DNA of 45,693 nucleotides. Source: Candidatus Saccharimonadota bacterium (GTDB lineage: Bacteria; Patescibacteriota; Saccharimonadia; Saccharimonadales; Saccharimonadaceae). Within the stretch, counting starts at the first letter, position 1. Every line of letters starts with the position of its first letter. The position numbers and the translations under genes are program-made. Shown piece by piece: positions 1,122 to 37,834 of the stretch. The notes beneath the pieces are model-generated. The model did not search any database. It was not told where the DNA came from and worked only from the letters and a program-made list of their open reading frames with translations. The stretch covers positions 3,296-48,988 of the forward strand of contig JAUNAL010000002.1 in assembly GCA_030527585.1 (NCBI GenBank). The letters are read 5' to 3'.

Positions 1122-1130
1122 AAGGTGATG

Positions 1131-1248
1131 ATATCATATTTATTTCCTAAGCGAAACATAAAGAAAACGCCAAACTGGCGTTTTCAGAGCGAGTTCCCAT
1201 AAAGACGGGGGGCGACGAGCGGGTTTCGCGTGAAAATAAATATGATAT
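1131..1248. repeat. Structured intergenic element, copy 1
   Basis: This is a nested-hairpin element between the nuclease gene and ychF. The outer arms 1131-1145 and 1234-1248 pair over 15 bases without mismatch. An inner 7-base stem pairs GCGAAAC (1151-1157) with GTTTCGC (1223-1229). A 10-base hairpin follows (1163-1172 with 1176-1185, loop AAC), then a weaker C-rich/G-rich hairpin around 1195-1210. Copies 2 (31475) and 3 (36709) share the core and fold but carry different outer-arm sequences that still pair. The right arm overlaps the ychF -10 box. RNA or DNA function is unknown. Confidence 0.75.
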
Positions 1249-1257
1249 AATACTGAT
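1246..1257 (+). promoter_or_regulatory. ychF leaderless promoter (-10 box)
   Basis: TATAAT at 1246-1251 is followed by exactly 6 bases and then the ychF ATG at 1258. Transcription should therefore start at or next to the A of the start codon. There is no Shine-Dalgarno site. The box overlaps the right arm of the structured element. Confidence 0.75.
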
Positions 1258-22292: not shown

Positions 22293-22869
22293 TCATTTTT
22301 TCCTGCTTTTTACCATCATTTCAACCCGCCCAACCAACGCTAACTTTATAATCTCATCCTCGACCAACGTTATCGAAAACGTCTTATGCCCAATCCGGTT
22401 CATACTCGCCCCACAATGGTAAACTTTCCTCTCATCAATAATAGAATAGCGATCGTGAAAAGTATTGTTATAAACTACCCGCAAATTATTATATTGTTTA
22501 TTATCCGCCGATATATTTTCGCATTGCGACGAAAGCATTAATAATCTTTATATTCATTCTTACCGCAACGTCACTTTTCAACAACCCAGACAACATCATG
22601 ACGCCTTGTTCCGTTAAAGCATGCGGCAAATATCTCGCACCGCCATAACCCCTTCCTCCTAAACTTGAGGTCGCAAATTGCGACCTCAAGTTTAGAGCGT
22701 TAACTTCTTCCCTTGTTAGCTGAAAACAAAATTCCTCCGGAAATCTATTTTGATTCCTTTTAATCGTCTCGTTAACTCTTTTCGTTTCGGCTTCATAAAG
22801 TATAGAAACATCATTCGCCAACATCACCTGCTTCCCACGAACCTCAAAAACCATTTCCCGGACATCCAA
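22293..22869 (-). pseudogene. Broken ORF6N-domain protein
   Basis: The N-terminal frame (22869-22501, 122 residues) is a clear ORF6N domain: FEVRGKQVMLANDVSILYEA, TKRVNETIKRNQNRFPEEF, CFQLTREE, LRSQFATSS, HALTEQGVMMLSGLL, then FVAMRKYIGG and a stop. The C-terminal part continues in another frame (22538-22293): NKQYNNLRVVYNNTFHDRYS, IIDERKVYHCGASMN, HKTFSITLVEDE. In intact relatives I know of, these parts flank a middle region of roughly 130 residues, which is missing here. So an internal deletion plus frameshift has inactivated the gene. ORF6N proteins are phage-associated and DNA-binding. Confidence 0.75.
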
Positions 22870-31474: not shown

Positions 31475-31579
31475 AAGCAAACTTTCTAGGGCAAACGTAA
31501 AGAAAATGCGAAGCTCGCTTTTTCAGAGGCGAACCCCGTGAAGACGGGCGCGAGACGGGTTTGCCGTGGAAGTTTACTT
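31475..31579. repeat. Structured intergenic element, copy 2
   Basis: It lies between rpsO and truB. Outer arms 31475-31486 and 31568-31579 pair over 12 positions with one mismatch and one wobble. The inner stem is GGCAAAC (31490-31496) with GTTTGCC (31559-31565): compared with copies 1 and 3 (GCGAAAC/GTTTCGC) two base pairs are changed on both sides. The hairpin 31502-31511/31515-31524 has one mismatch. CCCGT-GAAG-ACGGG forms the next hairpin. The core from the first hairpin on is nearly identical to copy 3. Confidence 0.75.
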
Positions 31580-31589
31580 TAAATTCTGT

Positions 31590-36708: not shown

Positions 36709-36819
36709 AGGCAATCATTATTCTGAGCGAAACATAAAGAAAATGCGAAGCTCGCATTTTCAGAGGCGAGCCCCGTGAAGACGGGCGCGAGACGGGTTTC
36801 GCATGAATAATGATTGTCT
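36709..36819. repeat. Structured intergenic element, copy 3
   Basis: It lies between recA and murB. Outer arms 36709-36723 and 36805-36819 pair over 15 positions (one G-T). Inner stem GCGAAAC (36727-36733) with GTTTCGC (36796-36802). Hairpin 36739-36748/36752-36761 (10 perfect pairs, loop AGC). Hairpin CCCGT (36772-36776) with ACGGG (36781-36785), loop GAAG. This is the best-paired copy and a good reference for a model. Confidence 0.8.
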
Positions 36820-36823
36820 ATGT

Positions 36824-36829
36824 TATAAT
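36824..36829 (+). promoter_or_regulatory. murB leaderless -10 box
   Basis: TATAAT preceded by TGT (extended -10 form), then 6 bases, then murB ATG 36836. The right arm of element copy 3 ends 4 bases upstream. Confidence 0.75.
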
Positions 36830-36835
36830 AACATT

Positions 36836-37834
36836 ATGAAAATTCGCGAAAACGTCAACATTTCCGAACTAACGACCATGCGTCTCGGCGGTCCCGCAAA
36901 ATTCGTTATCGAAATCGAAAACGAATCCGATATCGAGTCTGCCTTTAATTTTGCAATTGAAAAAAATCTTAAAGTCTTCGTACTCGGCGGTGGCGCCAAC
37001 ACTCTCGGCTATGACGAAGGCTTCAACGGCGCCATCATCACTAATAAAATCAAGGGCTTAAAAGACGAAAACGGAATTATTACCGCCATGGGTGGTGAGG
37101 AGTGGGATAATGTTGTCGCTTTCGCAACCGAAAAAGACTATACCGGAATCGAAGCCCTCTCAAAAATCCCAGGCTCTGCCGGTGCCGCTCCGGTCCAAAA
37201 TATCGGCGCCTACGGCCAAGATATTTCCGATACTTTCCTTGAAGCCAGAGTTTACGACCGCAAAGAAAAAACCTTTAAAACCTTAAAAAAATCCGACTTC
37301 GATTTCTCTTATCGGAAAAGCATCTTAAACACTACCGACAAAGACCATTATTTCGTCATCTCAATCTCCCTAAAACTCAAAAAAGGCGAGATGGAACGCC
37401 CATTCTATAATTCAATCGAAAAATATATCGCCGAAAACAACGAAACTGATTTCTCTCCAAAAAATATCCGTAAAATCGTCTCAGAAATTCGTAAAGATAA
37501 ACTCCCAGACCCGAAAGTTAGAGCTTCCGCCGGCTCATTCTTTAAAAATGTTTATCTAAACGAAGTGGAAGCAAGCTTCGCCGAAGAAAAAGGTCTCCCA
37601 GTTTACCATGGTCACGACGGGCTAAAAATCAACTCTGGTTTTCTCATTGAAAAAGCCGGCCTAAAAGGAAAACTTCTTCACGGTATGCGCATTAGTGACA
37701 AAGCAGCCCTCGTTTTAATCAACGAATCCGCAACTTCCTATGCCGACCTCGCTGCCGCCCGTGCCGAGATTAAAGAAGCCGTCAAAAACGATTCCGGCTA
37801 TGAACTTGAACAAGAACCCGTGGAGCTAGTATGA
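36836..37834 (+). CDS. murB: UDP-N-acetylenolpyruvoylglucosamine reductase MurB
   Basis: A 332-residue FAD enzyme of peptidoglycan synthesis. Motifs: LTTMRLGGPAKF, the FAD-binding FVLGGGANTLGYDEGF, IPGSAGAAPVQNIGAYGQDI and the catalytic Ser in RASAGSFFKNV. The frame is open 11 codons upstream but this crosses the promoter, so ATG 36836 is used. folD overlaps its stop by 4 bases. Confidence 0.95.
   Translation: MKIRENVNISELTTMRLGGPAKFVIEIENESDIESAFNFAIEKNLKVFVLGGGANTLGYDEGFNGAIITNKIKGLKDENGIITAMGGEEWDNVVAFATEKDYTGIEALSKIPGSAGAAPVQNIGAYGQDISDTFLEARVYDRKEKTFKTLKKSDFDFSYRKSILNTTDKDHYFVISISLKLKKGEMERPFYNSIEKYIAENNETDFSPKNIRKIVSEIRKDKLPDPKVRASAGSFFKNVYLNEVEASFAEEKGLPVYHGHDGLKINSGFLIEKAGLKGKLLHGMRISDKAALVLINESATSYADLAAARAEIKEAVKNDSGYELEQEPVELV

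Follow-up and report, generated by a model that had tools for sequence, protein, structure and literature searches.

Three intergenic regions of the window (the whole 45,693-nucleotide stretch that was analysed, part of a draft genome of 598 kb in 37 contigs) carry copies of a palindromic repeat element of roughly 105 bases (Table 1). All three were found where the initial annotation had placed them (1131–1248, 31475–31579 and 36709–36819). Each copy has an outer stem of its own, a 7 bp inner stem, a 10 bp hairpin and a C-rich/G-rich hairpin. The annotation had proposed one fold common to the three, and folding and covariation bear this out. The inner stem is GCGAAAC/GTTTCGC in copies 1 and 3 and has swapped pairs in copy 2, as described there. 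The hairpins said to be shared are present as a fold, but the second hairpin of copy 2 contains one mismatch (GAAAATGCGA/TCGCTTTTTC) and copy 1 has an additional GGG inside the C-rich/G-rich hairpin. Within the window there are two occurrences of the core string CCCGTRAMGACGGG, against 0.00 expected.

Table 1. Repeat copies in the window and their parts
Feature	Position	Strand	Remarks
Copy 1 insert	1137..1242	+	Borders set by the empty site in G192; between a GmrSD_C-domain gene (-) and ychF (+)
Copy 1 outermost left arm	1130..1136	+	Belongs to a target inverted repeat already present
Copy 1 outermost right arm	1243..1251	+	With a TATAAT box (1246-1251) ahead of ychF
Copy 1 common core	1151..1229	+	Three stems: inner, hairpin, C-rich/G-rich hairpin
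Copy 1 core parts	1151-1157/1223-1229; 1163-1172/1176-1185; about 1189-1219		Inner stem; hairpin; C-rich/G-rich hairpin
Copy 2 insert relative to G192	31477..31586	+	Between rpsO (-) and truB (+)
Copy 2 common core	31490..31565	+	Swapped inner stem GGCAAAC/GTTTGCC (31490-31496 with 31559-31565)
Copy 3	36709..36819	+	Arms AGGCAATCATTATTC / GAATAATGATTGTCT plus core; between recA (-) and murB (+)
Copy 3 common core	36727..36802	+	Inner stem GCGAAAC/GTTTCGC (36727-36733 with 36796-36802)

The neighbouring genes (rpsO encodes S15) are divergent at all three positions, as had been reported, but this setting is not general among the other copies of the genome. These lie between convergent, divergent and co-directional gene pairs alike, and some arms hold stop or start codons. 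The TATAAT box ahead of ychF is a putative promoter, judged by eye. The longest murB open reading frame starts within copy 3 (36803); a TATAAT at 36824 and the sequence of a relative suggest a true start at 36836. Elsewhere in the window, at 22659–22695, there is a perfect 18 bp inverted repeat with a 1 nt spacer (CTAAACTTGAGGTCGCAA/TTGCGACCTCAAGTTTAG), whose sequence is unlike the palindromic element.

Size and distribution of the family

The element is found many times over in gut Saccharibacteria genomes. The number of copies given in the initial annotation, three, holds for the window, but a covariance model built from 13 copies brings the genome total to 17 close and 3 diverged copies. 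Two further loci suggest decayed or chimeric copies: at L267 of the same genome, and at L009 near 3016 on the minus strand, fragments (CTTCCAGGCAAAACATAAAGAA, and AAGCGAAACATAAAG followed by other sequence) resemble the element's 5′ portion.

The search of related genomes, proposed earlier as a check, turned up many further copies with paired changes. With 55 genera sampled, the covariance model has matches in 59 of 150 relatives, every one from the same genus. An exact core, GAGCCCCGTRAMGACGGGCGCGAG, is present in at least 119 stretches of a collection with one genome per species; the matches listed are all from Candidatus Saccharibacteria, mostly of ruminant gut and some of termite gut. Allowing up to one mismatch, the core is present in 80 of 393 genomes of the class; these represent 5 of 152 genera, which belong to one family, and the reversed core string has no match among the same 393 genomes. 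The range thus takes in this genus and a small number of its sister genera in one Saccharibacteria family, and among the genomes sampled the element was not found outside that family. Copy number is uneven from genome to genome. Carriage by phage is unsupported, as viral contigs gave no exact match to the core. Among the listed open-access papers on Saccharibacteria that use the term "palindromic", none was seen to describe such elements. The nearest relative found, G192, has a YchF that is 90% identical and DNA that is about 80% identical; it contains nine close copies, of which three are at sites common with the genome of the window.

Paired changes between copies

The covariance model and statistical test of covariation that had been suggested were run on 13 copies of the genome. 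The covariation score is 0.416, as compared with 0.135 ± 0.015 for shuffled alignments, none of 500 of which reaches it, and 0.05–0.12 for slid controls. The compensatory changes noted in the window are therefore real. In the same 13 copies, 91.9% of cells are paired and 25 pairs are altered on both sides. The outer arms had been described as specific to each copy and still paired, and in agreement with this both sides vary in 15 of the 16 outer-stem pairs.

Copies in open reading frames

By core string, 175 distinct copies were collected, the own genome included; as the relatives were gathered with one fixed string, subfamilies with other cores are under-represented in this set. Twelve copies lie at locus edges and 163 could be scored. 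Open reading frames of at least 120 codons read through 125 of the 163 (87 sense, 38 antisense). Among the 38 copies outside such frames, only two have a common protein match on both sides, which is at most a hint of a split gene. The host genes are often housekeeping genes and include those for LeuRS, synthetases similar to ValRS/IleRS, YchF and a Der-like GTPase; they were recognized from conserved motifs in the translations, and YchF by search. For 63 of the copies in open reading frames there is a homologue free of the insert, in which the extra residues are missing.

Copies outside the own genome have a given frame open about 48% of the time, and random insertions into genes would be expected to leave about 16% of copies open in frame (one third × 0.48). 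As gene-breaking copies are nearly absent, insertions of that kind appear to have been lost. In the subfamily of the window only 13% of frames are open, in keeping with its intergenic position.

YchF was matched in all 147 of 147 genus genomes. About 16 of these have an insert near residue 209, all of them open and some 25–45 residues long; at least six of the approximately 16 belong to the palindromic family of the window, and others are different palindromic units. Residue ∼209 of YchF is thus a hot spot for several palindromic families. In-frame units with other cores are seen there in L214, L220, L221, L226, L227, L218 and L215, and these units (for example GGACGGG..GGGGGACCCCC) also have long copy-specific arms. 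An AlphaFold prediction for a YchF bearing the insert has a mean pLDDT of 61.7, too low to be relied on; in it the insert (about 197–231) and the N-terminal domain are the most disordered regions. Over the 63 copies with an insert-free homologue, arm residues identical to the homologue number 59 of 361 on the left and 58 of 357 on the right, which shows no bias toward either arm as the ancestral one at the large distance of these homologues.

Occupied and empty sites

Homologous sites that are filled in one genome and empty in another give information on the origin of the arms. The site of copy 1 is empty in G192, where ATTATATCA|TGGTATAAT forms an inverted repeat holding divergent TATA-like boxes; copy 1 occupies the centre of such an inverted repeat. 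The G192 site of a second copy, L026, is also empty and is arranged in the same way (ATTATATCA|TGTTATAAT). A direct target duplication is found at neither of these two empty sites. For L030 and L238, a terminator-like hairpin occupies the site in the genome that lacks the copy. Within the LeuRS gene (L082), the homologue L139 has AGAGGC..GCCTCT at the site, and the flanking protein sequence is identical.

At other sites an arm resembles host sequence in inverted form. This is clear at L025, whose left arm coincides with the end of the adjacent gene (AKIKFL, AKIEFL in G192) and whose complementary right arm is missing in G192. It is likely at L028, at copy 2 of the window (L037, where the G192 site reads TTTTTCAA-CATCTA-TGTTAAAATA) and at the ychF loci L217/L224, where one arm resembles the opposite flank turned round. 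The comparison gives no clear arm origin at L027, L032, L036, L234 and L237. The first of these is copy 3 of the window, whose site is empty in G192 at a divergence too great for borders to be placed. At the site of the own copy L024, G192 has a different palindromic sequence (L253) flanked by AAATAGTTAATT/AATTAACTATTT.

With insertion points placed by hand, 13 empty sites show an excess of inverted repeats over randomly drawn windows from their loci (Fisher p 3e-4) and a weak excess over shuffles (p 0.03). The empty sites are at best about 80% identical, so that an ancestral hairpin or arm could have vanished in the relative. Taken together, the comparisons suggest that the outer stem derives from a prior hairpin at some sites and from an inverted host flank at others.

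This bears on the meaning of the paired changes. The initial annotation took them as an argument for a selected structure. That paired change on its own points to selection is not supported. Where an empty site can be compared, the outer pairing is often accounted for by a prior target hairpin or by an arm that is an inverted flank. The alternative set out in the annotation, a random set of palindromic insertions, comes near the best explanation, except that the set is not random but forms a family sharing a conserved core. The filled and empty states of homologous sites, together with the number of near-identical cores per genome, suggest that the copies move; differential loss of old copies may account for some of the sites.

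Upkeep of pairing in orthologous copies

Nine orthologous pairs were compared with each sequence folded singly, and the pair-cells were counted in both directions. RNAalifold pair counts hide broken pairs by construction, and the counts were therefore redone with single-sequence folds. Among changed pair-cells, 51 are compensated on both sides, 41 are still paired after one change and 66 are broken. Three diverged pairs supply most of the compensated changes. By the authors' estimate, not a simulation, few compensated cells would be expected from independent change of the arms at these distances. As both arms change together beyond this expectation, pairing appears to be renewed or kept, by copying or by selection. 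In L029/L239 several adjacent pairs are replaced together, a pattern that template switching would give and that selection could give too.

Origin of the copies

The three features are probably copies of a multiplied palindromic family of Saccharibacteria that works like the Rickettsia palindromic elements (RPEs), with arms made by hairpin-primed template switching. The common unit is a core of about 75–80 nt, consisting of the inner stem, a hairpin and a hairpin ending in CCCGTRAMGACGGG. This core appears to lie within or next to a short host inverted repeat, such as divergent promoter boxes, a terminator hairpin or a chance hairpin within a gene, or else beside a plain flank, part of which appears to recur inverted across the core. 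In either case each copy has its own stem of about 12–30 bp. At the replication fork, the nascent strand may fold on the core hairpin and copy its own flank, which would create new outer arms and re-match the arms after one of them mutates. Template switching is known both to make and to repair hairpins (PMC8794818). Within genes, the present-day copies are those that keep the frame and lack a stop; the subfamily of the window, with stops in most frames, is found between genes.

A dispersed functional RNA (a cis-regulator, a terminator-like element or a small RNA), in which selection keeps the arms paired, would account for the strong covariation. It would also fit the position of the window copies, all of which precede ychF, truB and murB and are oriented like those genes, and the frequency of copies at terminators or promoters. 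The gene setting, however, is not fixed, copies in relatives lie mostly within open reading frames and on both strands, and species differ in whether a homologous site is filled or empty. A regulator of ychF, truB or murB does not fit such varied settings and in-frame copies on both strands. A cis-regulatory leader RNA was rejected because position and orientation upstream of related genes are not constant, and no Rfam covariance model matched the element even at E values up to 1. A functional RNA is thus quite unlikely, and the copies probably have no function for the host. A non-autonomous transposon of MITE or REP-like type, with a host transposase acting on hairpin ends and preferring palindromic targets, would explain short palindromic units that are amplified and inserted at the centres of palindromes. 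The best-resolved empty sites (copy 1 and L026), however, lack a target site duplication, and the ends are copy-specific arms and not conserved terminal inverted repeats, so that a MITE was rejected. In a search for the PF01797 family, in which control genomes were positive, the Y1 transposase (IS200/RAYT type) was absent from the own genome and from 58 of 60 genus genomes, being found in two; a REP/RAYT or IS200/IS605-related repeat was set aside because the own genome lacks the enzyme. Transposition of this kind is accordingly unlikely.

A further possibility is spread at the RNA level, by reverse transcription of the folded RNA into new sites; an RNA route has been proposed for the hairpin elements of Allomyces mitochondria (PMC2800124). 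Of 60 genus genomes, 40 have RVT_1 reverse transcriptases (for example L275 and L276), mostly as open reading frames of 350–450 amino acids. This route is nevertheless highly improbable for the present element: mean core matches are 4.2 in 21 genomes with a reverse transcriptase and 4.9 in 14 without, and the own genome has only a weak match. For copies within genes, removal from the RNA or skipping by ribosomes (intron-like or byp-like) might be envisaged, as a long copy-specific stem that could join the ends encloses the insert, essential genes are affected, and palindromic bypassed elements are known, such as byp of Magnusiomyces mitochondria (cited in PMC6649704). But the frame and the stop-free state are kept almost without exception, which would be needless under removal or skipping, and many of these copies are antisense; this explanation is barely credible. 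As Y1 is nearly absent and reverse transcriptase does not track copy number, template switching is favoured for the arms. Several points weigh against the template-switching account. Arm copying alone does not explain how the core reaches a new site, five sites have arms without clear origin, the hairpin excess at empty sites is weak when set against shuffles, and broken pairs outnumber doubly compensated ones in orthologues.

Relation to other palindromic elements

By its behaviour the element is analogous to the RPEs, in an unrelated phylum; common descent is not claimed. RPEs and similar elements of Wolbachia are palindromes of about 100–150 nt, with several families per genus; many of their copies lie in frame in conserved genes of unrelated kinds, and other copies are intergenic (PMC10969869). 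The Saccharibacteria element is likewise a short dispersed palindrome with many copies and a conserved core. Its copies in relatives are in frame and stop-free within conserved protein genes, and those of the window are intergenic. It differs in having copy-specific outer arms that appear to be host-derived, and in that its orthologous copies seem to renew their pairing, whereas RPEs are said to lose repeat identity over time (PMC6649704).

Template-switch products (quasipalindromes) show the same inverted adjacent sequence, stems formed in one step and several compensating changes at once (PMC8794818). The known cases are local, whereas here a dispersed repeat core would be at the centre of each event. 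The mitochondrial hairpin elements, i.e. the double-hairpin elements of Allomyces and the RHEs of sponges, are also dispersed, short, non-coding hairpins found between and within genes. They differ in residing in organelle DNA, and flank-derived, copy-specific arms are not described for them in the passages of PMC2800124 consulted. The coding palindromes of Nematomorpha mitochondria resemble the element in that long inverted repeats are present in translated genes, and a conversion process has been suggested to keep them paired (PMC6649704). They have no common core and both arms encode conserved protein, in contrast to the inserted repeat core of Saccharibacteria.

The Saccharibacteria family bears on how RPE-type repeats move and why they are in frame within genes. 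Its copies are numerous and many species of the genus have been sequenced, so that filled sites can be set beside empty ones and show directly where the arms come from. A tentative and rather doubtful proposal is that the family spreads without an enzyme of its own: the core hairpin would provoke template switching at the fork, seed at host hairpins and build and repair its stem from the adjoining DNA, and in this way peptides would be added to essential proteins throughout the genus. There is also a caution for the study of repeats. Paired change between repeat copies is usually read as a sign of selected RNA, and part of it here can arise from the making of the stem.
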